In this document: in pieces, positions 10,544-62,640 of the stretch
Layout: every line of letters begins with the position of its first letter
Numbering within the stretch: position 1 is the stretch's first letter
Made by a program: the position numbers and the translations under genes
Notes under the pieces: generated by a model
Database searches by the model: none
What the model was told of the DNA's origin: nothing
The model's input: the letters and a program-made list of their open reading frames with translations, nothing else
Assembly: GCA_001692895.1 (NCBI GenBank)
Contig: KV748176.1
Span: forward strand, 3,625,092-3,689,091
DNA length: 64,000 bases
Reading direction: 5' to 3'
DNA from: Cenococcum geophilum 1.58
Lineage: Eukaryota; Ascomycota; Dothideomycetes; Gloniales; Gloniaceae

Positions 10544-10565
10544 CTTTAGCAAAACGCTACTAGTA

Positions 10566-33197: not shown

Positions 33198-33536
33198 GTG
33201 GGAAATAGGAAAGAGAAGGGGGGAGGGGGGTGGCAATAGAAACAAGGGGTAGGTCACCGAGTCAAGACGGGGTAGGTGGCTGGGTCAATGACTGAGTCAA
33301 TGGGTAGGTAGCTGAGTCGGGGTGGCAAGACAACCTGATTCAGGTCGACACAGTGAAAAGAAATTAGAGGAACCAGCATTTGGGATACCCCAGAATTGTC
33401 TTCTGCTATCCAGAAACCCATAAACCAGGCGAACGGATTACCCCCTTTTTTGCAATTTTCAAATACGGCCTGCGCTGCCAACTCGAGACCTGCGACCTCT
33501 GAAGAAGGCTTCGAAGAAACTATGAACCCCGACGTA
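33198..33536. other. G-rich degenerate repeat and unassigned sequence
   Basis: About 33205-33330 is G-rich with imperfect repeats of a GGTAGGT-GCTG-GTCA type unit. The rest (33340-33536) has normal composition and one open minus-strand frame of 75 codons (33254-33481) without recognisable features; I do not call it a gene. Confidence 0.5.
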
Positions 33537-33937
33537 CATAGGCCTTGCTATGGTATCCGGCGAAAGCAGTGTACATGTCAGTGCGCGACAGGGGTGCTTC
33601 AGCCATATAACAAAATATTTGAAACAGGTGGCGTAGAGAAGAAACGCAAGCGATTGGTATATTAAGTAGTATACTTCGCTCGCGTTCTAGATTTTATATC
33701 ATATTTATAGTATCTGCTTAGGTATTTGTTTAAACAAGCCCCGTATCGGGCATTAATATATAACTACTTTCGCCGGATACTATAGTACCGTATACTTTCT
33801 ACTCGTATATTCTTTAGCAAAACGCAAGCAGGGGTAGGCTAAGAGCCGATTCGCCAGAACAGAACCGTTCTAATTAGCGTTTGGGACGACCCTCGCGAGA
33901 TCACCGTCGGTCGATTCGTCATCGCTTTAAGCTCGCC
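33537..33937. mobile_element. Short inverted-repeat element, copy 2 (partial)
   Basis: Same orientation as copy 1 at about 10615-11018 and nearly co-linear with it: shared blocks are CATATAACAAAATATTTGA, GCCCCGTAT near 33740, and GAGCCGATTCGCCAGAACAG near 33842. The left inverted-repeat arm is missing, and the right arm is cut by the start of a Copia-1-type LTR. It is less altered than copy 1 in its left half. Confidence 0.75.
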
Positions 33938-33974
33938 TGTCGACCTGAATCGGATTTCCCTACCACCATCGTAC
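33938..33974 (+). repeat. First 37 bp of a Copia-1-type LTR (fossil fragment)
   Basis: TGTCGACCTGAATCGGATTT and onward matches the start of the Copia-1 LTR at 13230. It lies inside the short element and is cut at 33975 by the left end of hAT-2, whose expected duplication CATCGTAC (33967-33974) is LTR sequence. The rest of the LTR should follow the other end of hAT-2, outside the window. Confidence 0.8.
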
Positions 33975-34545
33975 CAGTGGTCTACTTGGACTGGACTGGA
34001 CTGGATCTAGGCTCAAATCCAGTCTACACCAGTTCTATTGCGATTTGGCTCCAGGAGCGCCATACAATCCATATACTATTTATAGTAAGTCTTAGCATCC
34101 TTTGGTGTTGCAGTAGGAAGTTATGCGGAGTACCAAATTCGGCCCAAATTGTTTATATTGCTCCTTATATATTACTCCTTAAAGGCCTCAATCATCTCAA
34201 ATGCGTCCTCATCGTTACCTTCATCCTCATTGTCGCCAGTGATGTCAATGGACTGGATTGATTTTGGATTGGATTGGATTTCTTAGACTTAAAGTAGATC
34301 CGGTTAAGGACTTTAATTAGCTTATATTTAGATTGGATTTAAAGCCTTCTTATAACTGGATATCCAATAGATCCAGATCTATATATAGGTGGTAAGACGT
34401 CTAATATAAGCGAGCGCCGCTTAAGAATTCTAGGCCTATCGCCATACAATTAAGGCTCAATCTATTATAGCAACTAATTTAATTTAATAGAAATGATTAA
34501 GCTAAGGTTGTTAATTTAATGTAGATTAAGTAGAGGAAGTTAATC

Positions 34546-34608
34546 CTCATCGTGTCGCCCTCATCGCGTCGCCCCCATCGCGTCGCCCCCATCGCGTCGT
34601 CGCCCTTA
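34546..34608. repeat. 15-bp tandem repeat in hAT-3 5' region
   Basis: Four tandem units of the type TCATCGCGTCGCCCC. It is a GC- and CpG-rich island inside AT-rich sequence and lies before the transposase coding region, so it may be a subterminal transposase-binding array. Confidence 0.8.
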
Positions 34609-36521
34609 TTACAGCCCTTATCACATCACGTCTCCTTCCTGCTTAATTTTTTTAATCCGTCTACTTCTTCTATATAGAGGGCTTTGTTACTACTATAGGT
34701 CGAGTAACGCGCGAAGGGGGTAGCAATTATATATTAAGCAGCCGTGCTGCAGGCAAAGCTTCTGCTGTTCCTTAAAAGCAAGTTAGTAAGACCTCTAGCA
34801 GTAGAAAAAGGAAGCGCCTAAAGATAACTATAGATCCGATTAAGCCAAAGCCTCTTACCTATCATAAATCTAACCCTAACTCTAACTTTAAGCCAGAGCT
34901 TATATAAACGCTAGCGGCAAAGCTAAGTCGAATTAAGCTTTATGGAGAGTAGTACTATAAAGCTAGCAATATCGCTAGCTAAAGGCGCGGTAAGAAGAGG
35001 TTCTTGCATATATAGGGTAACAAGAAAGGATTCGCGATTATATATAAGATATTAGCAGTTAAATACTACTACTACTACTAGTGCCTAGATAAGAAAAAGG
35101 ATCCTATATATAAGCCGCTTAGTAAAAGACTCTACTAACTCTACTACCTATTTACTAATTAGTAATTAGAACTTAATGGCAACTCTTTTATTCTAAGTTA
35201 CTAGAAAAGGACTTACCAAATTAACTAAAATAGCAGTAAGATTAAATCTAAAGGGCTAATTAAGCAGTATATTGTACAGTAGGATTATATTTAGAACGCC
35301 TAGTTTAATCGCTTTAAGATCTTACTAATCTACTAGCTAGTATACTGTTATATCACGTTTTACTAGATTAAAAATATCTACTTCCTGAAATTAATTTAGC
35401 ATCTATATAGAAGTCTTATTAAGTATATTCCTACTTATAATATAATCCGCCGCTAGGTTATAGATAAGTTTTAAAAATAGAAGCGTTAACTATAAAAGAA
35501 CTTATAAGAAGCTTAATTAAATATCTACCTATCCTTTAACCTCTAAACATCACCAAACTGCTATACTATTATCGCAATTATCGCCTACTATATTAATAAG
35601 AGCGGAGCTTAATAAATAAAGCTTCTTACTTTATAGCGGCTTAAAGGCAAACATACTAGTATAAACCAAGCCTAGATTATCCTTAATATAATTAGCGAGT
35701 ATAAGATTAGCGGTAGAATTAGGTACTTTATGCTTAATAACGCGTTAAGCAACAATATAGCTATTAACTTAATTCTTAAAACTCTGTATCTAAGGATATT
35801 AGAAAAGTAGTAAAAGCGACGTTAATTATAGTGCCTAGGCTATATAGTTAACCTCTATATATAGGCGTTCCTTCTAGGTAAGAAGGTAGATACTATACTA
35901 GAGGAGCTTAAGCTGGCTTATAGTAGGCATGACTTTAAATTAATCGTGAAGATCTAGAGGTAGTAGGGAGCTCTTAATCGTCTATATAATATTATTAGAT
36001 ATATTAGGATATCGCCCTAGCGCTATAAGGAGTTCTAAAAGGTTATAGTCAGTGGCAATTAGTCGTTATTTAATAAGCTTAAGGTAAGTAATGAGATCTT
36101 AGTATTAAGATTTAGTAATATTTACTACTTAATAACGTTAAAAGCCAGGGGTTTAATTAGTGGGCTTATATTTAGGCCCGGATTTTATAAATATCTGGGC
36201 TATAGTCGCAATATTAAACTTTTTAAATTCTTTAGCTAATATCTCTGCTAGCTTATTTAAAGCAATATAACGTAATAGAACTTATATTTTAGCTCTATTA
36301 TACGCGCTATTAATTATAAGTAATATATATAGTAATTCTGTAAGACCTATAGGCCTAAGCGTAGCGATAGTATTAAGAACAACCGTCTTATATCCCACTA
36401 CTAGTTTCTTCTTAAAAAGCTTTTATCTATCCTACAGCTATTTTATAAGGCGACTATATATAGCTAGGGCCATAAACATACTCTTTACCGCTAGTTTACT
36501 ATTATAAATTAGCTTCTTAAC

Positions 36522-36707
36522 TGTCGGGAATAAGGCAAGTTGCCGTCGCATAAAGCATATTGCCGTTACGTGTTAACGTAGCCCTAGCGTGGTAAGGAAC
36601 CTTAAGTTCCTCACCCCTTTCCTTATTCCTATCAATAAGAATTAACTAATATCACTGTAACCCTACTCAAGTAGTCGTTATTAGTAAGTCACCCTATGTT
36701 TCTAATA
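36522..36707 (+). repeat. 5' LTR of Copia-2
   Basis: 186 bp, TGTCGGGAATAAGGC to GTTTCTAATA, an altered form of the CCAACA end seen in the 3' copy. Confidence 0.9.
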
Positions 36708-39700
36708 CTAATTAGTGGTTGAATACACAGTTAACCATAAAGCAGCTAGGTTTTTAAATAGAAGAGATAGTCTCGTATAGGGGTGCTATATGCGCTTATA
36801 TAGAATGGATCCCGGCGATACTATGCTACCTTAGACTTACGGAAAACTAGTAATAGAAGTGTTACTAAGTACTAGGAGATACCAAGTTGTGTCCATTATA
36901 TAGAACAACCACGTTTACGAAGATTTGGTTAAGTACTTTAGGTTAGAAGTGTTACTAAACCTATAGTCCTAAAATTAACGTCTAAAACGCGTTAAATAAC
37001 TACGCATATAAAGATTTGGTTGAGTACTTTAGGTTAAAAGTATTACTAAACCTACGGTCCTAAAGTTAATATCTAAAACGCGTCAACAACATCTTAATTG
37101 CCTACCTTTTGACAGTAAACCTACGAGATTCTATAAAGCCAAAAACCCTACCTACCTTTAACGTACGACACCCCGTCGATTCTATACCTACTATAGCATT
37201 AATTTACCTAAAGAAGTATAAGAAAAGTATTAACCCAGAGATATAGGACATAGATATTAACCCTGTAAACGCTAAGGAATAGGACCTAAACGGATTCTTA
37301 GTATACTATATAGTATACTATATAGATAGCGAATATAATAATACTAAGCTATGGTGTTATATAAAGGAGGACTTTATTAAATAGATAAAGGAAATATAGG
37401 CTCTTACAAAGAAGGACATTATATAAGACTTCTGTAACTTCCTTTAGGAGAATAGAGTATTTATCCCTATAGATAGGGGTGCTATTAGAGACAATATCTA
37501 AGAGCAAGTTATTAACGTAAAAGAAGAGCACAAATGGACTCTATAAGAGGTTAAGCACTAACTACGCACTAAAAGAAAGCTTAACTTATAATAAAATCCA
37601 AATAATACGCCAACAGAGACGCGTTCTAATTCTATTACTCCAGGCACAAGTTCTTACGTTCCGCATTTATTGCTTCTACCTCTATCTCTAGCTCCCTAGG
37701 ATCTACTAATTTAACTAGTAATATTAACTACTACCCCTTAAGAGCAAGCGCAAGATCCCCTTGCTTCGCGATTTAATAACCTTTAAACTCTACTATAGGA
37801 AGATTAGATACTACGCCATATTCCACCAAGCCCTATATCTCTACTGCAGCCTATAAAGTAATCCCCACCTTAATCTCTAATGCAATTTTAATGTGGTTTA
37901 ATACTACTTAGAGGTACCTTAAAAATACTTATAGAGCTTATAAAGCTCTATACGGACCAGAAGAAGAAGTTTAGTAGGGAACTATATAACATCCTTAATT
38001 CGAAGCTACGTATCTTCTATAACTATTACTAGAAGGTTAGACTAGAACCTAACTAATATTATAACGCCTATTCCGTTATACTTAAGGGCCACGCTAGTAC
38101 CTTCTATTATAATTATTTGGCAGAAAAAGGATACGATTTTAACTAAATAATATATAAGATAAGATGCTACTTTAAAATAGAAGAGAATAAGTAGTAATAT
38201 ATGTTAAAGTAAAGAGAGACTACCTTCTTAAGAATTATTGCTACGAACCCAGGTGTCTCTTGGCTTAATTATCTTTAAAAGCTCTTTAATTAACTTTAGA
38301 TAATTTAGCGTGGTTTATCTAAATTATATTAAGAGGACCTTAGCCTATATAATTAAGTCATTAGCGTATACTAAGGTATCAAAGAATGTAATCTTACTCT
38401 CTTTAACCCTATAAGTACTTATAAAGGAGTATATACTTAATTAAGATCCTCTATTAACACTGCTCTACGCTCTTAAGAAGTATAGCAATTTAACGCCTAA
38501 CTTTAACCTACCTTAATCGACCCGGCTAACTAATATAATTATAACTGGACTAATTAAACATATAGTAGACGTGGTAGGGGATATAGTAAAGGGTATAATT
38601 AACGTTAATTATAAGGTAATTATAAAGGTCCTTATAGAGGTTTACTTCGGAGTAATTATTAGAAGAAGTACTACGTTTATAAGAAGCCAAATTACTAGTT
38701 AACTAGACACCCTCTTAATAGACGAAAGGAGGTATATAATAGGTTTCGCCAGAGCGCACAAAACGTTAGAAACTAAGAGGTTACTATAGCCTATTTCCAA
38801 AACTTCTTAGTTTAATATAAAGGCGAAGAAGATCTTAAGGGTAAGGTTAATAAGGCTAAACAGCTCCTTATAGATATAGAAATTAAGGACTACTCTCCTA
38901 ACCAATACTTTATTAAGTATAGTAAGGTAAATGGTATATAAACCGTTGCTATCCTTAATAACTAATTTACGCTCCATTCTATTATAAAGTTAGATATCTT
39001 TAATAAGCTAAAGAAAAGTTCCGCGTTCTCCTTTAATAATAAATACTTAGCAAACGTCTTTTATAGCATTATGCTAGATACTAAAGCCGCAGGAGTATCT
39101 ATAGTAGGAGAGCCTTAAGTTCAAGCTCTTTAGTAGCTTAATAGCTCTATTTAAATTAACTAATTAACAGCAGGCTAATATATAATTCGCTTTAGTAAGG
39201 GTACTGCAATCTCTCTTAGTACAATTAAGGTCCAAACCCTGTTAGGATATATTACTTTCCACATTATCCCTATAAACACCCCATTCCTATTCTATATCCA
39301 AAATATAAATAAATTAGGTATTAAGCTTAACAACCTTAAGAATATACTTGTCTAGGGAGATAATCGGGTGCCCGTTATACGCAAGTAGGGTTACCCTTAG
39401 TTGCTCCTTTAACAGCTAGAAAGGAGCATTACTTAGAGCTACCTAACCAAGTTAGAGTTACATTAACTACACCGTCGTTTTAGCCACCTATCTGTTTACT
39501 AATTACTTAGGGTCCTTTAGCGAGTAGGTTATAAAGTTAAGGTTAAGGTGATTAAACATCTTATAAAGTACTGCTATTACTGCTAAATAAACCAGAAGTC
39601 CCCTAGCCGATTTAAGTTTACTTTTAAAAATAACTATAACTTTAACTTCTATATTATTATAGATGTTATATATCTTAGCGGTAAGCCAGTACTCTAAGTT

Positions 39701-39930
39701 ATTAACTTCTTAACCTTTTTCTAAGCTGTACGCTTTTTAAAAGATATATTAGCTAGGAATATATAGGATACTCTTTAATTATACTAGATTAATATCTACC
39801 TAGGACCCCCTAATTAAATCGTTTATAATATAGGAAAGAACTTCTTATCTATAGAGTTTTAATAATAGGCAAAGGCAATAATAATTAAGGTTAAGGAAGT
39901 CCCCGTTAAGGTATATAATAGTATTAGAAA

Positions 39931-39983
39931 NGTAGAACGATANTATANNCNATTACGCCGCGTATATAAGATNATTTCTTTAN
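39931..39983. other. Cluster of undetermined bases
   Basis: Scattered single N calls inside the Copia-2 integrase-to-RT region. They are not a gap run, so they are probably consensus ambiguities. Similar clusters lie at 49063-49142 and 60393-60604, with one N at 43122. Confidence 0.9.
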
Positions 39984-40921
39984 AACTAGAGGGTGCTAGC
40001 GAAGAGCTTATCCTATAGATGGCTGTTAAGGCTGTTAATAATACCGCTGGCCTAGATGGGCTCGTACCTATATTACTAGTCTTTAGCGCCTACCCTTAAA
40101 TAACTAACGATTCTTTACTATCTCCCTTTATTACGTAATAAGCTAAGGCTATTTATAAGGCAACAAAGGAGGTATAACGTCTCTACGTTATGCGCCAGGT
40201 TAATAACGTACTAGGAATAAGAAATGGCCTAAATACCTTAACTACGCTTAATCTACCACTCTAATCGGAGGTACGTGTATGGCGTAAAAAGGGAGAATAG
40301 TTAGGCCCACATAAACTTATTATAATTAATAGTTAAACTTATACTCTTTAAATACCCTATAAACCCACTTAATTCCACTTAACCGTTATTAAGCCCTACT
40401 ATAGGGATAATAGCTCCGAGCCTTTATAGGATACCCCAGAAGATACCCTAGGAGATGCCCTAGAGGAGAACCACGATCAACGTGCCCTAGAAGGTAACTA
40501 CGACCCCGATATAACTATAGTAGATACGCCGCAACCACGACGCGGTAGAGGTCGCCCGAAAGGATCACGAAACTGCTAACACCTTATTAATTTTGAAGAG
40601 CAACTTGTTGCTGCCATTGAGAATAGAGTCGAGCTATTAATGGCCTTTATAACAGCTAAAGAGAAGGCTAACTTTAAGCTCGCAAAACAGCTCTAAAAGA
40701 AAGGCCGTATTATAACTCCAGGAGCTTCTTTCTAAGCATCTGATAAGTAGGAGATTGACGGTCTTATTATAAGAGGAGTCTTTAAGTTTAAGAAGTATAA
40801 CCCTGCTAAGTTCGATGGGGTTCGCATATTTAGGTTAAGAATAGTTAATAAGATTAAAGGTAAAGCTACTAATACCTCATTTAAGAAGTTAAGGCTGGTT
40901 ATTTAAGGTTATAACAACGAC

Positions 40922-41346
40922 TGTTACGGACGCTTTAAGTACGATGTTATGACTACTTAGAGAAGAGACGGAAGAAGCTAGTTAGTTAATTTAGGCACGG
41001 TCTAGGATGGAGCCGATAGAACTATGTGACGAGGAATAGTAACTAAGGTCACATAATATGCTACGTATTAAATAAGAGGAACGAGAGGAACTTACGTACC
41101 TTACGTATAAGACGTATATTACGTACAAGAAGGATTTTATAGAAGTACAGTTGTGTATTTAAGGACCCTCAGTCCCTACCTAGATAGTTCCTTCCTTATA
41201 GTAATTCTTAGAATATAATTGGAGTTAATCTGTTAGGCAACTACTCCACTAGTTATTATTACGTTGTTAACTTTTATACTTGCATTTCCTACACACCTAG
41301 CCCAATAATGAGCCTATTGTAGTTCTTACTATAAGGTTCCGTTATA
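40922..41346 (+). repeat. 5' LTR of Gypsy-2b
   Basis: 425 bp, TGTTACGGACGC to GGTTCCGTTATA. It holds CCTTACGTATAAGACG and a GTATTTAAGG box (about 41155-41164) that could be its TATA region. Confidence 0.9.
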
Positions 41347-44300
41347 TAATTACTACCTAGTTATAGTATTAATATAAGAAGTCGAATAATATGCTACCAA
41401 AAGCAGCCACTATAACGCCATCTACGGCAGCAACTACTTTAAGGACAAGAGGTAATACCAGTATGGCAGATACTAACTTATAGCAACCTGTGACGGTCGG
41501 ACAGCTATAGGAAATAGTTAACTAGCTAATAGCTAATAATATAGTGTTGGAAGAAAGACTTAATGGGATAGGAGTAGTAAAGATCAAGCTATTATTAATT
41601 AAGAGATTTATAGGAGAGAGGTTAAAGCTTAAAGAATTCCTTATATAGATGCACTTTAAGGTCTTATAGGAGGGAGTAAAGTTACCTATACCCGTGGATC
41701 GGATAGCCTATATAGGACTATTTTTATTAGGAAAAGTATTTAAGTAGTTTAAACCTTACCTTATAGAGATATAGGTAAATGGAATGATAACCACTAACTA
41801 AGACGTGCGATTTATGTTCTTAAGTTAGGAAGAATTTATAAAACAACTTATATAGATATTTGGAGATCCAAAAGAAATAACTATAGTGGAAAGAAAACTC
41901 TAGAACCTCGTGTAACGAACTTTAGCAATTAAGTATATAATATAGTTCTAGACACTAGTAATATAAGTAGAGTGGAATAATAGGGCGCTTATAGTATAGT
42001 ATAAACAGGGACTTAAGGCTAAAGTCTAGGACGTAATTATCCTAATGGAAGATACGGAAACCCTAAGGGAACTAATAGATTAGGTAATTAAAATTAACAA
42101 TTGGATCTACTAAAGGGAATAGGCTAAGAAGGGCTAGGATAGAGTTTTATAGTTATATAAGGCGTAAAGTACGCAACGATAAAAGCTAAGTTAGAACTAT
42201 AGTATGGCGCAGAGCTAATGGACCTAAGTGATACTAAAGAAGCCTATAAGAGATAGAGTAAACTATAGAAACCTAAAGGACAAGGATTAAGTAATTAAAG
42301 GTCTAAGGAGTAAAGGCCGGATTAGGGATCTTAATAGTAGAAGATATTTAAGCGGACTCTATAGTAAAAAAAATAGTTTAAAGAAGGAGCTTATATAAAT
42401 TACGGAAAATAGGGTTATTACGTTAGAGACTATAGAAGTAGGTAGAGTTACTATATAGTAAAGGGTATAAGACTAGTAGACGATATATATATATAAAGGG
42501 ATAATAATATACTGCAAGGAACAAAAGAATGTTTAATTAAAAGTTTTACGTTTTATTATAATAATGTATACCAAATTTATAAAGACGCTAAGTATGGCGT
42601 AAGCTATTAGCTATAAGAGCTAGCACCTATAGGATATAGAGGAACTAATAAACTAGTTCATAGATCGGATATTAAGGATGATAAATTTAATATAGGCGAA
42701 ATATTTTGTAATAATAAGGTAATAAGGGCCACTTACTAGGAGCGAGCAGACCTTGGAGATGTTATACTAGAGGTAAAGGATGATTCCACTATAAAATAGG
42801 GAATATTAGTAGGGATCGAAACCCTACTAGATACGATGTCTATCGCTTTATAAAATATAAGAGAAGTAGGATAATGAACTACTTCGGCACTTAATAAAGG
42901 TAAAAGGCCAAAGGCTTAAGATTTTTATAGCGAGATAAGAGATAACTAAGATTCTTAAAACGAGATAAGGCAAGCTTAAGGACCTATAATGGACAATAAC
43001 CAATAGAGCAGAGCAGTAGCTTAGTTTAAAAGCATACGAATAAGCTCGGGATAGAAGTTCCCATAGGCATAAAATTCTTAAGACGAGATAAGTGAGATTT
43101 AAGACTCTTAAGATAAGATAANAACACTAAGTAAGCCTAGTTAAACTAAGGCTAGAGCTAAGCTTAAGTTAGAAGTAAGCTTGGGATTAAAGAACCTAAG
43201 GGGTTAAGAATTTGGAGTATAAATTAGGATACCTATAGATAAGAAGCAAGCAGCTTCTTTACAGATTAGAGAATCTGCGGTATAAATAATAATTAGATTA
43301 GGAGACGAATATATAGACCTAGAGGATTTATTAGTTAAATGAAGTGTTCGGACTAAAGATTAAAAAGTTAATACTAGGATTAAGAAGTAAGACGACTTTA
43401 AGGATTAGAGCGTAAGGCGTAAACTAAAAGAAACTATGGAAGAGTTTAGGTAAAGAATTATCGCATAGCAAGAATAGAAACTAGATAAGAGATCTAGTAC
43501 GTTGGGACGTATAAAGAATAGAGCACTAGTACGAAGAATTACTAATAGGCTGAGAGTAGGTACACTAAGAGCTAAGTGGCTTACTAAACTGGAAGATAAA
43601 GAGGATCTAGGGATTCTAACTAGATTCGAAGAATAATATATAAAGGGCTATTACGATATAGTAATAAGAAGATACTTCCTTACGGATAGACTGTATATAC
43701 TCCAGTAGCTATACTAAAAGTGGTATAGGCAAAGGCATAATAATAAGTAGGAAGATTTTTATATGTGGTTAAATAAAAAAGTTATCTAGGATTACCTAAT
43801 TACGGAGAAGGCTATAATACATATTAAAGGAGCCTTAATTATAACGTTAAAGGATCTAGAGGAACGTTTAGAGGACTAGAGAAGTAAGAGACGTATCTTA
43901 GTACCTATAAATAAAGTTATAACGTTTAGATCGGCATAATAAAGGTTTAAACTTAGGGATAAAGACGAGCTAAGAGTTAACCTAAAGCACCTAGCATACT
44001 ATATATTATTATGGATTGCGTATATAGACAATATATACAAAATGCATAAGAATCCAAAGGAAAAGAATTGGAAATACCCTATAAGAATGTACTAGATAAT
44101 GGATAAATAATAGTATAGGAATGCTAAATATATATATAGATGGCATCCAGCAGAGGTCCAAAAGGAAGAAAGTTTAGTACTTTAACTAAGAAGATTCCTT
44201 ATGGAAGAATGCTTAGATGGATAACAGTAGTAGGAATACCTAGAAAATACGTGTTTATGGTATATTAAAGATAAAAAGTAAACTAGGTATTAGCTAAAGA

Positions 44301-47300
44301 GTAAGCCAAGTATACTAGGATTAAGTAGCTAATAGTTAGGAAAAGTAGAGGCCTATAGGATTAGAGGGAGCCAGTAGTAGAGCCTTAGACCCTTAAAGGA
44401 ATTTAAGGACAATATCTAAATTTACGAGTTAATTAGTAAGATTAGTAGTTCGAAGCGCTAATAAATAGTGGAGTAACGCGAAACCACATCTTACTAGCAG
44501 CAGTTAAGAGAATAGGATTACCTTATAGATAAAAGGAGCAACCTTACCTATTAGTTATAATTTTAGGAGATCTAATAACCTATAGAGGAGGGATTATTAA
44601 CCTTAAAATAGGACCTATTTAGATAACTATTAAAGGAAGATAAATTAAGATATCTTTTAATATTCTATTATTAGGACGGGATAAGGCAGTATTAGGTATG
44701 CCTTAGTTATAGGAATACAATCTAAGGATTAATTGGATTATAGGTTAGGTTAATATTAGAGATACTTAACGCCGTAAGATGCGATAATAAGCTAAGTTAG
44801 TATGGTACTAAGTAGGAGTAACCTATAAAGAAACAGAAAAAGGACTAAGTTATATACTAAAGAAATACCATAAGTATGGTAAGAAACTATAGTTACTGGA
44901 AAGTGAGAAGCTGTTAGAATATATAGTATAGGATTATAAAATAGAGTTAGAACTAGGAATAAGTCTAAAGTTCTTTCTAATCTATAAGCTTACCGAAGAA
45001 GAAGGTAAAGCGTTAAAAGAGTTTGTCTAGGAAAATCTATAAAAGGGATACATTAAACCATCGCAGTTATTAGCGGGTTATCCAGTACTATTTATACTAA
45101 AGAAAAATGGTAAACTAAGGCTGTGTATTAACTATAGGTAGTTAAACAGCATTACTAGGAAGGATAGGTATTCTTTACCCTTAATTAGTGAAATCTAAGA
45201 TAGGATAGGTAATACGCAAATCTTTACGAAGATAGATCTAAGATGGGCGTACTATTAGATTAGAATTAAGGAAGGCGATGAATAAAAGGCAGCCTTTAGG
45301 TTAAAGGAAGGACTATATAAACCATTAGTTATGCAATTTAGGCTTATAAACGCACTAGTAATATTCTAGAAGTATATTAATAATGTGTTAGGAGAGCACT
45401 TAGATAAATTTATTATGGCATATCTTAATAATATTATTATCTACTTAATAACTAAGGAAGAATACAGGGAACACGTTAAATAGGTCTTAAAGAGACTATA
45501 AGAAGAATAGATGCTAGTAGCAATTAAGAAATGCGAGTTCTTTACTAGGAAGACTGATTTTATTAGATTTATTATTAAATTAGGCCAATTTAGCATAGAT
45601 CTAAAAAAGATTAAGGCTATAGTAAATTAGTAGGAACTAGAGAACGTTATATAGTTAAAATTGTTTTTAGGGTTTTGCAATTACTGCAGAAGGTTTATAG
45701 CGCAGTAGTTAAAGGATATTAAGCCACTTACGCAGTTAATAAAGAAAGAAGAACTATAGGTATAGGGAGAGGAGTAAAGAGAACTCTTTAAGAAAGTTAA
45801 AAAGTTGTTTACCTAGGAGCCAGTTCTTAAGATCTATTAACTAGGATTAGAGACGGTTGTAGAGATAAATATATTAGACTATATACTAGGGGCATACTTT
45901 ATATAAAAACATTAAGATAGATGGCACCTAGTAGCATATTATAGTCGAAAGATAATATTACTAGAGTTAAACTATAACATTTACAATAAGGAGTTATTAG
46001 GTATAGTTATAGTATTAAAGGAATAGAGAGTATTCTTGTAAGGTATAGAGAAACTATTTATAGTTAAGATGGATTATAAGAACCTAATAGGATTCCTAAT
46101 GATAAAGAAACTTAACTAAAGATAGGTTAGATAGGCAGAGATGCTTACAGAATACCATTTTAAGATTTAGCATACTAAGGGTATAGATAATATGTGGGTA
46201 GATGCTCTAAGCCGTAAAGCTAAACTATAAAATGAGGAGAAGCCGTTAGGGGCTTTATTGCGAAAAGATATAGACGGATTAATTAGGTATAATTATCCAA
46301 AAATTATAGTAACTTAAGAAGACGACAAACTAAAGAAAGTCTATAAGATACCAGAAAGCTTTTAGGCATAAAGAATTCTAAAAGTATAGCTAGAAGATCT
46401 ATAGACGGATATATATAAAAATTAAGAAGTAAAGTATATCCTAAGAAGTATAGCAGAGTAGTTTGTGGAGGACTTTTATAAGGGACTAACTTAAGAATAT
46501 AATGGAGCTATAGGCTTAGTGTTAAGACTCTAGGAGGAGTATATTATTAACGGAATCTAGAGAATAGCTAGGAAGGTTATAAAGAAATATTTAGATTACT
46601 AAAGGAATAAACTGATGAGGTATAAGCTATATAAAGGGCTATAACCTATTAAAATACTAGAGAGACTATAGGAGGTTATATTATAGGACTTTATTATTAA
46701 GTTGCTAAAATTAAAAGATCCTATTACTGGATAAAATTATAACGCGATCTTAGTAATAATAGACAAGCTTATAAAGTAGGGATACTTTATAGTATATACA
46801 GAAGAAATCTTAGCAGAAGATATCGCTAAAATCTATATTAAAGAAGTATTTATAAGATATAGAGCACTAAGTAAGATTATATCGGATAGAGATTTAAGAT
46901 TTGTAGTAGTATTCTAGGAAGTGTTCTTAGCGGAGCAAGGAGTTTAAGCAGTAACTTCTACTATATACTATCCGCAGATAGACGGTTAAATAGAAAGATT
47001 AAATTAGACGCTAGAGTAGTATCTAAGGCATTATATTAATTATATATAGAATAATTAGGTATTACTGTTACTAGTTATATAGTTTGTATATAATGTAACA
47101 CCTTAAGAAGGAATAGGCATATTACTATTTAAGGTAAATTATGGATATAAGCTAAGAATATCGTTGTTACTACGGTAAGTAAAGAAAATAAGTAGTATAG
47201 CTAAAGAGAGAATAAAGATATTAATGAATCTTTATATAGACCTTATGGAATTAGTAAAAAAGGTATAAGAGAGAATAAAAAGGTACTATAATGCTAAGAA

Positions 47301-48446
47301 ATCTAAGGGACTAGATCTTAAGGAGGGAGATAAAGTATGGCTACTATACAAAAATTTTAAGAGTTAACGACTAAGTAAGAAGTTAGACTATATTAAATTA
47401 GGACCTTTTAAAATTATATAGAGGATTTTACTAGTTATATTTAAGTTAAACCTACCAGCTAAAATAAAGATCTACCCTATATAGTATATCGCAATGCTAG
47501 AGCTAGTATATAGGAATATTAAGCCACCGGTCTATAAAGTAGACATATATAAAGGATAAGAAGAAGACAAATAGTAAGTATTAAAGATCGTTAATTATAA
47601 GGACATTAATAATAAAATATAGTATAAGGTTAAGTGGATAGGCTATACTAAAACTACTTAGAAGCTACTAGAGAATTTAAAAAACGCTATAGGAAAGGTA
47701 CAGGAGTATTAGAAGAGATTAGGTTAGGTAGTATTAATAAAGAAGGATTGCTAAAGAATAAGTTACCTAAGGGGGACCTAAGAAGAGTAGTTGCTGAACT
47801 ACTTGGATCTGTTTTCTTCTCTGTTAGAGGAGAATCCGTTCTTTTATTACCTAGTTCCTATAAACCTTATTTTATAAGTTTCCACTCCTTAAAACAAACC
47901 TTCTTATAAACCTTCTTAAGATAAAGTAGATAAGTAGATGCCGTAATTTAAATATCTAGGGCCTTCTGTTCCGCGTCACGGGAACGTTTTAACTTAGTAA
48001 GGGCTTGCGATAGTTTACTATCTAGCCGCGTAGCAGTAGATTAAATATAAGACCCTAAGATAAATTAATTAGGAAACTAGACGACTATTAAGAGTAATAG
48101 GTCGCGTATATTTAGTATTAGAAGTAGAGCAAACGTTATAGGACAAACGAATATTTACTTTAGTATACTTTAAGCAAGAGGACGGTTATTATAAAGATAG
48201 GTTCGCCAACATAATATAAACTAACCCCTCTTTTAAACAACAAGAACACGGAGACGGTATAATCTTACTAAGAGATAATATTGCAGCAATAGTGCGAGCA
48301 CGACGTTGGGCATGTAAAGAAGAAATTACTTTAGGTATAATAAGCAATAATGTTAACTAAATTAATTAGACGGATATTATACCTCTAGTAAACAACCTAG
48401 AGATGCTAGGTATCTTTAAGGACGAAGATAAAGAGGAGGGAGATAG

Positions 48447-48871
48447 TGTTATGGACGCTTTAAGTATAATATTATAACTACTTAGAGAAGAAACGGAAGA
48501 AGCTAGTTAGTTAATTTAGGCACGGTCTAAGATAGAGCCGATAGAACCATATAACGAGGAATAGTAACTAAGGTTATATAATATGCTATATATTAAATAA
48601 GAGGAATAAGAGGAACTTATATACCTTACGTATAAGACGTATATTATATATAAGAAGGATTTTATAGGAGTACGGTTGTGTATTTAAGGACCCTTAGTCC
48701 CTACCTAGATAGTTCCTTCCTTGTAGTAATTCTTAGAATATAATTAGAGTTAATCTATTAGGCAACCACTCCACCAGTTATTATTACGTTATTAACTTTT
48801 ATACTTGCATTTCCTACACACCTAGCCCAATAACGAGCCTATCGTAGTTCTTGCTATAAGGTTCCGTTACA
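48447..48871 (+). repeat. 3' LTR of Gypsy-2b
   Basis: 425 bp, same length as the 5' LTR, ending GGTTCCGTTACA. Confidence 0.9.
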
Positions 48872-49062
48872 ACGACGGTAAGGAAGTAATTCTTATATAA
48901 TCTCTTATAATTTAACAAGCTAGTTAGCAAGTTATTATTACGCTAGCTCCCTCCTTAATAAAGAATGGAATGGCGGTTTATTTGCAAGATATTACTTAGG
49001 CCTATACCTAATTAGAGACGCACCTTTAGCGCTTAATATTAGCATACCTTTTAGAGTAAATT

Positions 49063-49142
49063 NGCTACNANTANNCNAAAGATANNATTATAGTTGTGNT
49101 TAAGCCATTGTATNGAATNNTAGAGGTAGGAANTTACTAGTN
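49063..49142. other. Cluster of undetermined bases
   Basis: Scattered single N calls inside the second part of the Copia-2 reverse transcriptase. Confidence 0.9.
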
Positions 49143-50563
49143 GGCTACCTATAGCAAGCACTATAAAGAGAAGCTTTTAATAACTACTTTTATATTTAAT
49201 CTATGCTTCCTTATTATAACTATAGGAACTCTATTTGGAATTATCGGCATATAAACTAATAATATAATTATCTTAGGAGATAACCAATTCTTAGCTCTTA
49301 AAGAAGACGAGCTAGTAAAGGCAAATCTTATAGCAAAGCCAAAGGAAAAGCTTAATTTAATAACACTATTACTCTTTAATGGATATATCCTCTCCCTAAA
49401 TAAGGGCTCTATTGCTCTACGCCAGAAGGGTTAAGGCAAGAAGATTAACGTTATTAACGTTAATTCTCTAAAGCAAGGATACGTAAAGCAACGCGCTTGT
49501 GGAGCTTATATGGCTTCTATCTATTAACCTAAGGCTTCCTTTAATCTCTTTATTGCCGCTTAACACCAGGAACCAACTAAGGATAACGTTCTTGCCCTAA
49601 ATAAGCGTTTTTTTTAGCAAATAAACTATCTTAATAGGGGACTACTCTATATACCTATTAACCTTCCTACCGCTAAGCTCTTTATATTTGTTAATAGATT
49701 GTTTATAAATAATAAAGATTTTAGCTCCTAGCTAGGATATAAGATTATTATCGCGAACGAATCTACTAGAGAGAATAACTTTATAATCTACGGCAACCTT
49801 ATCTATTAGAGCTTAACTAAGAGTAAGCGCGTTACTTAAAGCGTTCTAGCATTAGAGATATATAGAATAGTCGGCGGAGTTAATATGGCAATTGTAATTG
49901 GAACTACCCTTAAGATAATTATAGACCGGCTTAAACTTCCCGCTATCTCTACAATCGTATACACCAACTTATATTCCCTCTATAAGTATTTAGTTAAGCT
50001 TAGTACTATAAAGGAGAAGCGTCTTATAATCGATATTATAGCACTTTAGCAGTCCTATAAGTATTAAGAACTCTTTAAAATCTGATAGATTAATAGCTAA
50101 GATAACCTAGTAGATATAATAATGAAGGCAAACCTAAATAAGGCACTAGAGACGTTTATTAACATAAATACTCTATATATACGAGTTAAAGGTTGGGTTA
50201 AGAGGGAAATTTAGAGAAGTTAAGATCTTATAGAACTTTAACCGCCGGTTAAAGTTATTTAATTAGTTAGATCCTTACTAAGAGCGCCGCGCCTAATTAA
50301 TTTAGGTGGCGGTATAGACTTCTACTAACTAATTAGGATTTTCCATACCCGGTATAGAAAATCGCCATTAGCTCGCTTACTACTAGCGTCTTAGCGGCCT
50401 ACCCGTCTTCGCGTTATCCACTAAATTCTACTAACTGCTGCATTATCGTATATCGTCTGGTTTTATTATATATTGTCTAGTTTTGTTATATATTATCTAG
50501 TATTATTATATACTATCTATTTATATATATATATATAGCAACCACAAAAAGAAGAGTTGCTAG

Positions 50564-50749
50564 TGTCGGGAATAAGGCAAGTTGCTATTGCATAAAGCAT
50601 ATTGCCGTCACGTGTTAACATGGCCCTAGCGTGGTAAGGAACCTTAAGTTCCTCACCCCTTTCCTTATTTCTATTAATAAGAATTAACCAACATTACTGT
50701 AACCCTACTTAAGTAGTTATTATTGGTAAGTCACCCTATGTTTCCAACA
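50564..50749 (+). repeat. 3' LTR of Copia-2
   Basis: 186 bp, same length as the 5' LTR, ending GTTTCCAACA. Confidence 0.9.
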
Positions 50750-51564
50750 TTAACTATACCTAGGACGCCTAGATAGATTTTAAAGAATATTATATATAGT
50801 ATAGGGACCACAATAAATACGCTTACCTTGAGGCTGCTGCCTACGCGTTATAGGAGAAGTGTAAGGAGTACTATAAGCTAGCCGACGATAGCGCTGCTTA
50901 CTACGCTGCTTAAGTCCTTCTACTAGATAAGAAGTAGTAGTAGTTTTATTAAAGATTTAATAATAATAAGGACAAGAAGCACTGGTTTACTAGTAACCCT
51001 AAGGATTAAAAAGATTATAGTATTTAGGGCCTAGTAGAAGACCTCTAGCTAGAGAAGTATAAGGGTAAGTATACTACTCCTATATCTAACCAGCCTTCGT
51101 TACTAATTATATTTATATTAGGTAAGACTTTTAGTAGGCTTAAGAATTATAAATAGCTTAAATCTATACCTTTTAGCAGATTTAACGCCTACTAGACCTA
51201 TATTAAAAGCGACCCTAAATAGATTAATAACTATTTAGCTTATTAAAATAGCCTCTACCTCTTATAGCCTAACCTAACTTAGTTCGCCCTTAATATATTA
51301 GCTATACCCCTTATAAGCGCTAAATATAAACGCGTATTTAGTTTAGCTAAGTACCTACTTATAAACCCCTATAATTGTCTTAAAGCTGACATTATTAAAG
51401 CTAACAAGTGCCTTAAGTTCTGGTTTGGGTAACCTTAGGCTAAGGCTTTTATGTAAGGCGTTAATCCTAACGTTAACAAGCAGTATAAGGAGGAAGCTGC
51501 TACTAAGGCCGCCGCTAAAGATAAAGATAAGGCTGCGGATAAGGTTGGTATATAAGCTGGTGGG

Positions 51565-51652
51565 TAGGAAGATAAGTAGGAAGATAAGTAGGTAGATGAG
51601 CAGGAAGATAAGTAGGTAGATAAGCAGGAAGATAAGTAAGAAGATGAGTAGG
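51565..51652. repeat. 12-bp tandem repeat in hAT-3 transposase tail
   Basis: About seven units of AGGAAGATAAGT / AGGTAGATAAGC. On the plus strand they encode an aspartate/lysine/glutamate repeat at the C terminus of the transposase. They also keep a long shadow frame open on the minus strand. Confidence 0.8.
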
Positions 51653-51755
51653 ATGGGGTGGGCGTAGTTAAATATATAATCCACGATGACTGATTTGGTC
51701 CTTAACACTATGCCAAGATTCGCGATGTAGCTAAATATATATTGGATTATCTGGT

Positions 51756-51779
51756 TTAACCGGTTACGTAACCGGTTAA
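51756..51779. repeat. Perfect 24-bp palindrome near the right end of hAT-3
   Basis: TTAACCGGTTAC is followed at once by its exact reverse complement. It lies about 70 bp inside the right end of hAT-3, beyond the coding region, and could be a site bound by a dimeric protein or simply a hairpin. Confidence 0.85.
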
Positions 51780-54700
51780 GAAGCCTAATTTGATTTTTGG
51801 ATTGGATTTAAAGCGATTTTTGTATCCAATCCAGTCCATTGACATCACTGATTGTCGCCCCCACCCTTACCGCTAGCATGCTCTATCATCGCCAGAACCT
51901 CATCATCCTCCTCCATATCCTCTTCCTCCACCTAGGCAGCGGCGGCAGCGGCCACATCCGCAGCTTGGCGCTCCTTAATATACTCCCTAAGCTGCTCCGG
52001 TGTAGGGTTATATAGAGGTGACGGCTGAGGCTCTCCTTCCACTAATCTAACGCCCCTATTATTAAATGTATTGCTTCTTAGGGGCCCGTAGCTATAGCAA
52101 AGCCACTTATTTACCTCAATTATATCCATCTTTAGGCGCGAGCGTTAGTCCTTAAAAAGTATCTTATAACTGCTAAACAGGCGTTCGCATTTGTTGCTTA
52201 TAGGTGGAGGAGTAAGTACGTTAAGGGCGAAGCGGGTGAGGTCGGGTTGATTATAATAGAGCCTTTGCCAATAGTTAATTACATTAAAGTCTTTATTATT
52301 AGCGACTTTAAAAGGGCCCTCTTTTAGATACTTATCTAAAGCACTATCCTTCTTTACTGCGGAGGTTTAGTAGGTGCGTTTAATACGCTTATAATTATAA
52401 GCAGAGATATAGTCCTTTTCCTTTTATAGCTTCTTAATAGGGTAAATTAATAGATCTTAAGGTTGTAATCCAAAGCTCTTACCTTTATAGTCTTTAAATA
52501 TATCTTAAACCTTCTTTTTAACCTTATTAATTTAGGCCTTCTTATTCTTATCTAACCCCCATTTCTAGTAAAACCATTCCATTTTAAGTGTCGGATTTAT
52601 TATAATGGCGGCGTAGTAGGCAGGTATCTCATTAGCCTTCTTAAAGTACTTCTTGCACTTCTCCTATGCAGCGCTCGCGTAGCCAGATAGTAGCTTATAG
52701 TTTTAATTATTAGGTTAATATATAGCCGTAAGCTTAAGGAACTAATCTTTAGTAGTATAGAGTTTATTAATAAGCCAATCTAGCGTCTAGAAATAATTAG
52801 TAAGGCCTATATAATTACCCTCTACTATAATAGTCGCCTTATAAAAAGATTCTAGGTGCGTATAAAGGTGTTTAAGCTCTTTTTATTAGTGGGGCTTAAG
52901 GTGGTCCTCCTTAGTAAGAGGCTTTAAGTTAGTAGATAAAACGTAGTTATTATAGAACCAAGTTATACGTTTGTAGCAATTTAAAAACCAAGTAATTGCT
53001 ATAAAGAGCAAGTTTTAGCGAGTTTGATTATTTTAAATAAGCTAGTAAATTATTAGTGTTACTTTTAGTAGAGTATAAGAAAATAAAAGATTATAACTAT
53101 AGGTAAATCTTATAACCGTAAAGGCGGCTAGATATAGTAGAACTAAATCCTAATAATCTAATTAGTCCGGTAACGGGCTAGGTGGCGAATATTACTACTT
53201 TTAAAAATATTACTTACCTCTAAGCAGTTATATTTTGCCAGATCTCCTCTAATTTTAATACTCTTAAAGAACCTACGCCTTTAGGGAGTTATTTAAATGT
53301 ACCGGATAAGATTATAAAGTAATTTAATAGACCCCCGCTTCTTCTAGAGCTTCTAAACCCTTTTAAAGTCCATCTTATGGTATATAGAGGCCATTTTCTT
53401 ATAAATCTTCTTAGCGTTCTTTTTAATTATAAAGGCTTACGTGTAGAGGTTAATAATATAGCTAAAGCAGCGTAGCTGACGAGCTTTTTATTTCTTTGCT
53501 AATATCTTTAGGTATAGAACTTAAAGTACCGTATTAACGCACGTATTATTTAACTCTATATTATTGCCTATAAAATAGCTAACATTGTCTTTAAATCTAT
53601 ATTCCTTAATTAGCTTTAGTAGAATAGCCGCTATATTCTTACTGGAGTGTTTACTAATAACCTTATAAAGCCCTAGAACTATATGCCGTTGCCTTTTATA
53701 TTAGTTAATAAAATAACTAATAATACTAAGAATTGCGTGGGAGTTTGGCGATATTTATAAATTAAAGGATACGGATATAGAGCTATAAGCAGAGGCCAGC
53801 TCCTTCTTTAGGTTATCCTTCTTTTGCTTAAACTCTACTATAACCTAGCCCCGGATTATCTTTTTAGCTTTTAGTAAGAATTTTAGAAGGGCCGGATAGA
53901 GGTAATAGAGAAGGCTTTAGAAGTACTTATTTTTAAACTAGAAGAAGGCAATATAATAGCAGACAATCCACCTAATTAACAGCTGCTTAAACGCCTTAAA
54001 ATTTAACCTCTACTTAAGCACCTACTGCTTAGGATAGTCCTTAATTATTAGCTAGTTGGAGTTGCTTGGTTTAGGAGGCTTAAGGAAGCTAGTATATTAG
54101 TTTATCTAGTAATCGTTAATAAGGTAATCTAAAGCAGTAGTATATCTTAATGAGATTATTATAAGCTCCTGCTAACGCCTCACTCTCTTATAGATGTAGT
54201 AGTAGTAGTATACCTTCTTCCTATCGCCAACCTCGCCTAGTGCTCTTATTAATATCGAATATTGATTACAAATATTGAATATTAAATATTAAACGTTTAA
54301 TATTAATATTAATATGATATGTTTAATACTAAAAGATATTAAATATTAAAGATTTTTAGAGTTAAGGTGGTAAAAATAGGTAGATGTATTAGTAAATGAC
54401 TTTTGGGCCTCCTTACAATACGTACACATTTTAAATTTGTTAGGTAAACCTATAGAAAGTAAAAATTACCAAATATCAAATTAGGTCTTACAAGTCATCG
54501 CGCGCAATATCGTGACAATTTTAACACACCCCTAGAGCTTAACCCCCCGTATACTCTACCTTTAATTAACGCTATGCCTCCCTCATCTACTAACGTAATT
54601 AAGGACGATAATATATCCTCCTCTACTATTTCTAAGCTTGATTCTAATCGATTTACCTACTTTAGCGGCGACGATGACGCGTCAAGCGACTCTACACCAA

Positions 54701-57700
54701 CTACCCTAAAGTCGCCTCATAAAAGGCGCCAGTTAGCTACTTCTACGTAGAAGCTTACCCGCAATCCTCTCCCTTATAAAGCTATTCGCGACGGTAAGAA
54801 TTAAATATAGTACTATTTAATGTGCGAATAGAACTCTACCTTATTAATATCTATTCGCGCCCACCTAGCCAAAAAGCACAGTATAGAGATTTAAGGTGGA
54901 GAGGTTCGAGTAAAGCGATTGCGAGAGGAGCGCCTCTCTAATATACTGAGCGGCTTATAAGCCTTAAGACAGGTTAATCGCGAAGCTTAAGAAGAGCGAA
55001 TACTTTGAGCTGCTATTAATCGCGACGCCTTTAATAAAGCTCTCGTATAGCTTATTACTCTACAAAATCTACTATACAATACAGCTACCTGGCTAGAGCT
55101 ACACGTATTACTTATAACAGTCAATTATACTGCTAAGGAAGTTATAATTAATGCGACGGCAACTATACTAAAGTTAATTAAGCAATCGTATACAGTATAT
55201 TATGAGATTCTAAAAGCAAAGCTTTAAAGCTCTTTTTTAAAAATCCACTTTTTAATTAATATGTGGACGTAGGGGTCTTAATAATTGATATAATTATAAT
55301 CGACACCTAGATTTCAATTATCTGATAATTAAGGCCTTCGATTTCGATTATATTATATAGATTATAACCATTATATAAATATTACCTAATATACTAGGGG
55401 GGGTTAGTAGAAGCGCTTAAGTATAGGATAAAAGCCTACGGAAGTCTCTACTTACTGCTAATTACTACCGCGCCTACCAGACTTCTAAAAGAGGAAGTTA
55501 GTAATAGACTTCTGGTATTAGTTATACTCCTATTTATCCTCTAGTAACTTAATTAGGTTTTTAGCTATATTGCCTTTTACCTTATTTAGTCCTTTAATAC
55601 CTAATACCTTAGTGGCTATGTTGGTTGTTATAAAGCCACCTACCTTTATAACTTAACAGATCTAGCTCTTTAAGCACTCTATTTATTCCACTACCCCCAC
55701 TCTAAGCCTTAAGCGTTACTATAATATTATTTAATATATACTAGAAAAAACCCGTTTAGATTTAGCCGATATAATAGGTATAAAGAGGATATTAATAGTT
55801 ATATGTAAAAGCCTTAGCTAGAGTTTTTATTGCGAAGGCTTAAGCCACTAGCTAAGGGAGGAGTTAGTAATTAAAGCTAGAGGAGTTGCCTACTAAAAGC
55901 TAGTAATATTAGCTATCGCGAATAGTAGGAAGGTATTGCAAAAGGGAGGTCTAACTTACTATAATAAAGCGCTTAAATTTATTATTAGTAGAGGCTTGCT
56001 CTAGCTGCTTTTTATACTTCTATCTCTTATATACGTTCTTAATAAGATCTGGATTAGTTTGCTAAACTTACTTACCGTTAACTAGCTTATATTTATACTT
56101 TTTCTTCTAAAGGCTCTGTGCTGCCTTAATTGCTTACTTAATTATACCTAGATCTCGCTCCTTTAACACCTACTAGTGATTATCTAGATATTTCTTTTAA
56201 AGTGTTAGATTAAGAAGAAGCGCAGAGGCGTAGGTAGGAGTCTTATTAGTTAGCTTATAATACTTATTAAAAGCAAACTATATAGTTAAAAGCGACGCTA
56301 AGAGGTTTGTGTTAGCAGTGTATTCCTTCTGCTTACTTTTAACGTATTTAATAAGGAAATCTATGCTCTATAAAACCTTATTTAGAGTTATTAAGTCGCC
56401 TTCTAAGGACTTCGTTATATCCTTAAAAGGCCCTAAGATGGCAATAGTCTTATAGACAGTGTCCTATTTATCGCGACTAAGGTTATTCTTCTATATAGAG
56501 TCCTAGTTTTTATTAATAAAGATATAAATACCGTTTTTAAGCTTAATGGCCGACTTAAGCATAGTAAGCCATGAGTTCCACCTTATATTATTATTATAAG
56601 AAAGTATCTTCTTAGTAAGCGCCAGGAAGGCTTAATATCGCTCTATTAAACGCCTTAGCTATATAGTAATGTTATAGATTTTGCTAAGGGCTCCCATTTC
56701 TCGCCATTTAGCTTATATAGCCTTGTTTTAATTATACTTATTTTCCGATCGGATATTTACTAGTTGCTCTTTGTATTAAAGTTATTTAGCTACCTAAACT
56801 ATAATCTTAACGGCTTCTTTATCTTTATAGAAAAGGAAGGCTTAAATAATAAGGTTAATTATATGGCCTATATATTAAATTTAGTGTTAAGTAGCTAACT
56901 ATGAGGGGAAGTGCTTTTAGATTAAACGGTAGAGCTTATTATTACTGCCGTAATTATTACCTATTTACTGCTAAATAGGTAAGCATTTAATAGAGTTAGA
57001 TAGAGATTTAGGCTAACTAATAAAACGTACCTATTATATAGCTAATCTGGCTTTCCTTAATATTAAATTTATTTAATACCTTAATTAGTACCTTTACCTG
57101 CTCCTTACTACCGTAAGACTCCTTATACTTTTATAGAGTAAGCGTTACCTTTAAAAGGTGGCCAGCTTTATTAATAAAGTAAGTAGTTATTACCTAGAAA
57201 GCTGACTTATTTAGAGCCGTCTAATAGTTAGTTATAAAATAGACTTTTAATATTACCTTCTTAAGTCTTTTTTTAACTAAATCCTTATAAATTATAAATG
57301 TTTTACTAATAAGTAATAGCACTAAGTTGGCAGATTTGTAGAGGAGGTTATTAACTATATAATTATAAATATAAAGAAAGGCTCTAAACTCTAGCCACTT
57401 AATAATTGTATAATTAGACAAGAGGAGCTCTTGCTGTACCCGGCCCAAAAAGACCAAAAACAACTACAAGAACCCTAAAAAACACCTAGAGAATCCCCCT
57501 AAGATATATGCATCGCAGGGAAGGCACACGTTAAACGACGGTAGTTTGCACTCGCGCGCGCCTACCAGAACCACGCCTAGTAATGGCCCTCTATAATAAG
57601 AACGGGCGAATACTATACTATAAAGCGGAAAGACCTCTATTAAGAAGGCATCTAACAAAATATAAAGCCTATTAGACGCGTCTAGTATCTATAGTTATAG

Positions 57701-57949
57701 GGGAGTAACTGTTAGCTATAACGAACTAATATAGCTAGTAGAATGGCTCCGCCAATCTAGCGTACCTTAGGCGCCCCTTTAGTAAACCCTTAACTAAATC
57801 CTCTAACGGCTAAGTAAAATTAAAAATAAATAAACCCCTTTTTTACCGGCGAACCGCACCTAGGCCGCCGTAGCTGCGCCTCTATAGTATAGGGAGCCTA
57901 CCCCCCTAAAGATAATATCTAGATATATAATTATAATATAACTAAATAT

Positions 57950-59270: not shown

Positions 59271-59289
59271 TATATAATATAACTGCGGT

Positions 59290-62200: not shown

Positions 62201-62640
62201 AACTACTATAATATAATACTGGCTGGACTAACGCTAGAGAGGCGTATAGAAGTTAAAGGTATAGAAGTTAACTAAGGTAAGAAGAACCTAAGCCGTAGCA
62301 TAGTTAACGCCATAGGGGGTAAACACTTTAGGGCTCTAAGAAGGCCTAATAAAGGCAGAAAATATAATGGCAACACTCTTAAGAATAGGAGTAATAGGAC
62401 TAAAAGACTAGCTCTACTAGGTGGGTGTCCTAGTAGGTAGCCCAAGATATAAATATGGCTAGCTAAGATAGACACTAAAGCACGTAATACTGCTATGCCC
62501 CTTACGTACTAACTAAGAAGTAATACTTTTAGTAGCTGGCACAGAGAACTATAAGACACTGCTCTTAATATAAAAAGGCCTTAAGGCGGTTACCTAGTAG
62601 CTTATTAGCCAAAATATACTAAACCAGTTTTGGGTTGTAA
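59290..62640 (+). pseudogene. LINE ORF2 (endonuclease and reverse transcriptase), decayed
   Basis: N-terminal AP-endonuclease domain at about 59330-59880: ILTIQEPYYN near 59350 and SILLGDINLYYPR near 59650 carry the metal-binding E and D-N motifs. Reverse transcriptase at about 60740-61480: SYRPITLENTLSKILERVIA (60830-60890), GLPLSPILFLFFISNLL (61235-61285) and GFINDINLII (61319-61348), where the catalytic FxDD box reads F-I-N-D, one G-to-A change from D-D. A connecting and C-terminal region follows to about 62640. Many TAG/TAA codons break it. Undetermined bases cluster at 60393-60604. Confidence 0.85.
60393..60604. other. Cluster of undetermined bases
   Basis: Scattered single and double N calls inside LINE ORF2, between the endonuclease and reverse transcriptase domains. 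Confidence 0.9.

Follow-up and report, generated by a model that had tools for sequence, protein, structure and literature searches.

Structure of the Nested Insertions

The window analysed here is a 64,000-nt stretch of the Cenococcum geophilum 1.58 genome (177.19 Mb in 162 contigs) and corresponds to C1:3625092-3689091, C1 being contig KV748176.1; coordinates above 64000 are C1 contig positions minus 3625091. From 33938 onwards it holds a nest of transposable elements, in which a Copia-type long terminal repeat (LTR) is cut by the transposon hAT-2, and hAT-2 carries two stacks of insertions (Table 1). In one branch hAT-3 was followed by Copia-2 and then by Gypsy-2b; in the other, hAT-4 was followed by hAT-3b and then by Gypsy-3. 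Each branch is ordered only within itself. The five insertions proposed in an earlier note on this DNA (the LTR, hAT-2, hAT-3, Copia-2 and Gypsy-2b) were all present, with base-exact seams; the note had placed a single stack in hAT-2 and had overlooked the second one, in which three elements fill the right arm.

Element boundaries were set by terminal repeats or by homology to other copies, so the target site duplications (TSDs) were not chosen to fit. All TSDs readable on both sides were perfect (7/7). These seven matches of 5 or 8 bp at fixed places amount to 47 bp, with a chance of 4^-47. A readable duplication had been claimed for each of the five insertions, which held for four of them; for the Copia-type LTR only one side could be read. 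Structure, boundaries and duplications were observed directly in this analysis, as were the paralogous empty sites and the mutation spectrum given below.

hAT-2 breaks off at 54237, which is nucleotide 2641 of 3230, and its remaining 0.6 kb was found at C1:3702668-3703261, overlapping by 8 bp (ACCTCGCC). The displaced remainder and its 8-bp overlap therefore defined a 23.3-kb insert, hAT-4, and an end of hAT-2 at 54240 was ruled out. That position, given earlier as the end of the nest, is actually the hAT-4 seam, and hAT-2 resumes 23.3 kb further on. After subtraction of both stacks and of one copy of each TSD, hAT-2 of the window measured 3230 bp, the same as its two intact copies at C46 and C24 (3230 bp each). 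The other half of the LTR had been predicted to lie outside the window after the right end of hAT-2, and more of the LTR was indeed found at 78182-78258, past 78173 and the second CATCGTAC. The LTR was interrupted once more after its nucleotide 114 (at 78258), and the part still missing was not seen as far as 84338.

Table 1. Features of the nest and of related repeats (coordinates of the window, continued to the right of it on C1)
Feature	Position	Strand	Remarks
Copia-type LTR, first 37 nt (TGTCGACC...)	33938-33974	+	cut by hAT-2; continues 78182-78258
LTR duplication, left side (TCGCC)	33933-33937		sole readable side
400-bp local duplicate	33539-33938	+	other copy 10618-11017, 89.5% identity; LTR inserted into it after TCGCC
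hAT-2	33975-78173	-	runs beyond window end; own parts 33975-34236, 51859-54237, 77585-78173
hAT-2 TSD (CATCGTAC)	33967-33974 and 78174-78181		perfect, 8 bp; right copy C1:3703265-3703272
hAT-3	34237-51850	+	own 3381 bp; terminal inverted repeat CAGTGATGTCAATGGACTGGATT
hAT-3 TSD (ATTGTCGC)	34229-34236 and 51851-51858
Copia-2, GalEa-like LTR element	36522-50749	+	own 6273 bp
Copia-2 LTRs	36522-36707 and 50564-50749
Copia-2 TSD (TTAAC)	36517-36521 and 50750-50754
CTAATTAGT	36708-36716		immediately 3' of Copia-2 5' LTR
Gypsy-2b	40922-48871	+	LTRs about 40922-41349 and 48445-48871
Gypsy-2b TSD (ACGAC)	40917-40921 and 48872-48876
Gypsy-2b domains			reverse transcriptase about 45094-45561; RNase H about 45769-46155; Tf2-1-like SH3 about 47326-47502
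hAT-4	54238-77576	+	past window end; ends TAGTGCTCTTAT...ATAAGAGCACTG
hAT-4 TSD (ACCTCGCC)	54230-54237 and 77577-77584
hAT-3b, inverted second copy of hAT-3 family	65163-77089		inside hAT-4; TSD ACGACTCT
Gypsy-3	67416-75760		inside hAT-3b; TSD GCTTC
Full Copia element	13230 to about 19035		same window; TSD ATTAC (by eye); LTRs related to the Copia-type LTR

Classification of the Elements

hAT-2 combined an 8-bp TSD with a hAT transposase, for which Dimer_Tnp_hAT was matched at E 7.6e-9 (dimerisation domain at 52118-52339) and hAT-like_RNase-H at E 0.0022, below its cut-off. In hAT-3, the 8-bp TSD was accompanied by a 23-bp terminal inverted repeat (TIR; by eye) and a Dimer_Tnp_hAT match (E 1.1e-5, 51265-51426), as expected of a hAT element. 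hAT-4 also had an 8-bp TSD and TIRs, and was named as hAT-like because of its ends. The first 1026 nt of hAT-4 matched only themselves in the similarity search, while the part at 55264-64000 also holds other repeats, with RVT_1 at E 1.8e-12 near 60.8-61.5 kb. An AT-rich palindrome lies at 54271-54347, near its left end.

Gypsy-2b agreed with Gypsy elements in its LTRs, 5-bp TSD, RVT_1 (4.1e-18) and RNase H (RT_RNaseH_2, 1e-16; RT_RNaseH, 1.3e-16). SH3_Tf2-1 was also matched (7.1e-8), and the domain search detected no integrase core. Gypsy-3 had the LTRs, 5-bp TSD, reverse transcriptase (RT), RNase H and chromodomain of chromodomain-type Gypsy elements. Its domains were on the - strand (RVT_1 in two frames, 1e-7 and 3.9e-9; RNase H, 2.6e-16; Chromo, 3.5e-8), and the domain search of its + frames gave no result.

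Copia-2 was assigned to Copia by structure, without a clear domain match. Its LTR size, TGT...CA ends, 5-bp TSD, length and CHSeq1 after the 5' LTR were those of GalEa Copia elements. According to the available excerpt of PMC5445492, GalEa LTRs are 138-311 bp and the elements 5428-7018 bp long; the Copia-2 LTRs are 186 bp, with TGT...CA ends and a 5-bp TSD, its own length is 6273 bp, and CTAATTAGT is one of the two usual CHSeq1 sequences. In contrast to the GalEa elements of that excerpt, no second hairpin half (CHSeq2) was recognised in Copia-2 and no RT was found by Pfam. The fold of the Copia-2 hairpin had a z-score of -0.86, and 33 of 200 shuffles folded equally well. The same excerpt gives Cenococcum geophilum 177.57 Mb and 1246-2368 GalEa copies, and names RIP (repeat-induced point mutation) as 'probably' acting; an excerpt of PMC5023957 gives 178 Mb with 81% repeats.

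Empty Sites in Paralogues

For each insert, the two flanks were put together and the resulting join was searched for in the same genome. With the hAT-3/hAT-2 join there were 43 matches, namely the two own halves, 33 short partial matches (32 of them terminal) and eight that crossed the seam. All eight seam-crossing loci had a single target copy, one of them with a 1-nt deletion 6 nt away. For Copia-2/hAT-3, 40 matches were scored and 28 non-self loci examined; 27 were uninterrupted, with no indel within 8 nt of the seam, and one match stopped short. For Gypsy-2b/Copia-2, every one of the 40 matches listed spanned the seam, and the 20 examined were without indel within 8 nt (20/20). The search with this join had 1452 first-look candidates, the GalEa-like element being very abundant, which agrees with the published copy numbers for Cenococcum geophilum. 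The hAT-2/LTR seam was spanned by 33 of 41 matches, and the four examined all had a single CATCGTAC; the hAT-4/hAT-2 seam was run through by both intact hAT-2 copies (2/2).

The predicted joins were thus seen, and the empty-site check that had been suggested for related strains was passed with same-genome paralogues in their place. Since the flanks join to uninterrupted copies, the possibility that the two LTRs of an inner pair come from different elements was ruled out.

Order of Insertions and Alternative Explanations

The nest was built, with a probability of about 0.95, by successive independent transpositions, each into an element that had already landed. The insertion order is fixed because each copy sits in its host with a target duplication at the seam, and we infer that the cuts reflect the sequence of events in time. 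This order concerns copies and not the arrival of families, because the hAT-3 family occupies two places in the nest (hAT-3 itself, and hAT-3b within hAT-4). Of the fixed order of arrival that had been claimed for four families, the order of the copies stands and that of the families does not.

In such a history, the Copia-type LTR would have lain in the local 400-bp duplicate, and hAT-2 would have entered the LTR by hAT transposition, with an 8-bp duplication. hAT-3 and hAT-4 would have entered hAT-2 at two separate points. On one branch, the GalEa-like Copia-2 would have integrated into hAT-3 and Gypsy-2b into Copia-2, with the 5-bp duplications typical of LTR integrases. On the other, hAT-4 would have received hAT-3b, which in turn would have received Gypsy-3. 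The elements would afterwards have decayed mainly through RIP-like C-to-T change at CpA and CpG.

Several results weigh against this history or against the naming of its elements. The empty sites are those of paralogues and not of alleles. The TSDs of eight other hAT-2 copies were perfect over 8 bp in six; the copy at C103 had two C/T differences between its TSDs, and that at C46 had no matching TSD. For hAT-4, the scan covered the + frames of 54238-64000 and detected no hAT domain. Pfam searches of the Copia-2 frames with E limits of 0.01 and of 10 gave no RT and one sub-threshold DUF1290 match, and RT was also absent from the Pfam results of three Copia-2 paralogues. Six RVT_2 proteins of this genome had no tblastn match to Copia-2 at 1e-2, while the Copia element at 13230 matched all six in the same tblastn; tblastn with the frame of that element was of no help in finding a Copia-2 RT. 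A profile of the six proteins weakly matched two of the three Copia-2 paralogues, at E 0.0011 and 0.0018, but not Copia-2 itself. In a genome search with PF07727, the 150 matches listed shared no place with the 40 Copia-2 matches listed.

An assembly artefact would explain the pattern if misjoined reads of high-copy elements gave false nests. Single N are scattered in high-copy elements, including Copia-2 (36522-50749), and those in one Copia-2 paralogue (L091) sit at C/T or G/A differences between copies, which suggests merged reads of several copies. However, no N lies less than 180 bp from any seam, and misjoins would neither create, seven times over, matching duplications of 5 or 8 bp exactly where elements end, nor leave hAT-2 at its exact intact length after subtraction; an artefact of this kind is extremely unlikely. 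It is likewise very unlikely that a ready-made compound was moved in by rearrangement or duplication, in which case the order of cuts would be right and the events would have taken place elsewhere. A nested hAT could bring its load to a new site, as regards the inner part, and the hAT-2 copy at C27 also has widely separated ends. Against this, the inner element was absent from all copies examined at each seam, hAT-2 has its own TSD at this locus, and a 44-kb hAT-2 is, from general knowledge, unlikely to move as a unit. Stepwise transposition at the locus itself is therefore preferred.

Mutation Pattern and LTR Dating

The differences between LTR pairs were almost all transitions: 34/35 in Gypsy-2b (one transversion, 425 aligned bp), 17/17 in Copia-2 (no transversion in 186 bp), 23/24 in Gypsy-3 (one transversion in 308 bp) and 36/39 in the Copia element at 13230 (272 bp, in an alignment that slightly overruns the LTR ends). 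In the Gypsy-2b and Copia-2 pairs together, the differing sites were 27/51 at CpA, 20/52 at CpG, 2/60 at CpC and 2/82 at CpT. Transitions were thus concentrated at CpA, as in RIP-mutated repeats. Comparison of hAT-2 with its C46 copy showed 180 transitions and two transversions in 2371 bp. Of 11 element segments, ten had raised RIP indices; the left 254 bp of hAT-2 did not, and neither did the two gene-like controls.

From this spectrum we infer that RIP was the mutator. The elements had rightly been called heavily mutated, the change being RIP-like with very few transversions. The statement that LTR dating fails here was correct for transitions, which look like RIP; transversions stay usable and bound the LTR ages.

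Perfect Duplications

The context rates found in the LTR pairs were used to compute how likely each TSD pair was to stay unchanged: 0.98 for TTAAC, 0.93 for GCTTC, 0.36 for ACGACTCT, 0.34 for ACCTCGCC, 0.30 for ACGAC, and 0.17 for both CATCGTAC and ATTGTCGC. The joint chance was 0.001 for all seven, and 0.006 if hAT-2 is left out, the LTR that it entered being perhaps too short to undergo RIP. The three inner duplications, which had been singled out as perfect amid heavy mutation, were indeed all perfect, and this is only mildly surprising (joint chance about 0.05).

Among the paralogues the same sites vary: of 20 loci, one of them with N at this place, 4 had ACGAC unchanged; TTAAC was unchanged in 12 of 27 and ATTGTCGC in 0 of 8. 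Since the TSD pairs stay perfect while these sites vary, there is a mild sign, resting on 47 bp, that flanks were spared after an insertion. At one site of the hAT-3 TSD, both copies have T and two of eight paralogues have C, and the other RIP-prone sites are intact in both copies; if C to T is the only direction of change, the shared T would predate the insertion. It is possible, if rather doubtful, that the TSDs are time-stamped snapshots of RIP, with a burst after each arrival, little change afterwards, and the next element entering mutated DNA. If this were true, nests could order RIP episodes in addition to insertions, and TSDs could tell a single post-arrival RIP from repeated RIP of an element, which bears on repeated RIP in a fungus without known sexual stage.

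The Outermost LTR and Surrounding Repeats

The outermost LTR resembled 284-bp solo LTRs at C46 (TSD CTAAT) and C73 (TSD AATTC) and a 237-bp solo LTR at C1:289 kb (TSD GTAAG). Its solo relative and the LTR of the 13230-19035 element are about 74% alike across 263 nt, and that element has RVT_2 in its interior (8.2e-25); the outer LTR has no interior of its own. The 'Copia-type' label is therefore a fair one by relation, judged from sequence likeness to this element. Two Copia-type LTR copies lie back to back, inverted, at L083 (C48:849160-849608).

The LTR had been placed in a short repeat element. It is embedded in a repeated 400-bp stretch; however, among 43 matches, only the window copy at 10618-11017 covered 33539-33938. 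This stretch was ruled out as the Copia LTR itself, as it has only one other copy among these matches and no TG...CA ends, and the LTR begins at 33938. The termini at 33321-33350 (right-end-like) and 33938-33967 (left-end-like) are 80% complementary and face outward from 33351-33938; the left arm is part of a short repeat that matches many places in the genome. A gene-like stretch of 194 bp at 33352-33544 has a 93% copy at C1:3707736-3707929, about 49 kb off and past the far side of the nest. This stretch and its copy suggest a local duplication older than the nest.

Positions 1-10545, at the left end of the window, are another mosaic built from these families: a hAT-2-like stretch at 14-2090 (67% to 52023-54072, inverted), pieces of Gypsy-3 at 2474-5350, and a second Gypsy-2 copy, reversed, at 5349-10545 (85%). 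The hAT-2 copy at C27:674949-704303, with ends about 29 kb apart and a perfect TSD (CTTACGGG), probably hosts another large nest of this type.

Comparison with Known Systems

The locus provides a base-exact worked example, closed everywhere except at its outermost element, of a RIP-prone fungal genome growing by insertion into older insertions. Nesting orders the events without a mutation clock, which RIP spoils. No description of this locus was found in the literature, as judged mostly by titles and abstract openings. Transitions at CpA between repeated copies are also seen in RIP of Neurospora and Podospora, as described in the accessible part of PMC10787394; unlike in that description, CpG was also strongly affected here (20/52 sites).

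The pattern is real and very clean and is of a well-known kind, as nested clusters with TSDs have already been described in fungi (PMC4522978, in excerpt). Nested insertions are also mentioned for Pseudocercospora in the excerpt of PMC13041039. The excerpt of PMC4522978 reports 78 nested transposable element clusters of 7.5-63 kb in Mycosphaerella graminicola. These resemble the present nest in their nesting, in some base elements with verified TSDs and in a RIP-like CpA bias, and differ in that the TSDs tabulated there are those of LTR base elements. Here, in contrast, the TSDs of seven insertions were read in one branching nest, with three hAT in hAT, and paralogous empty sites were seen at five seams.

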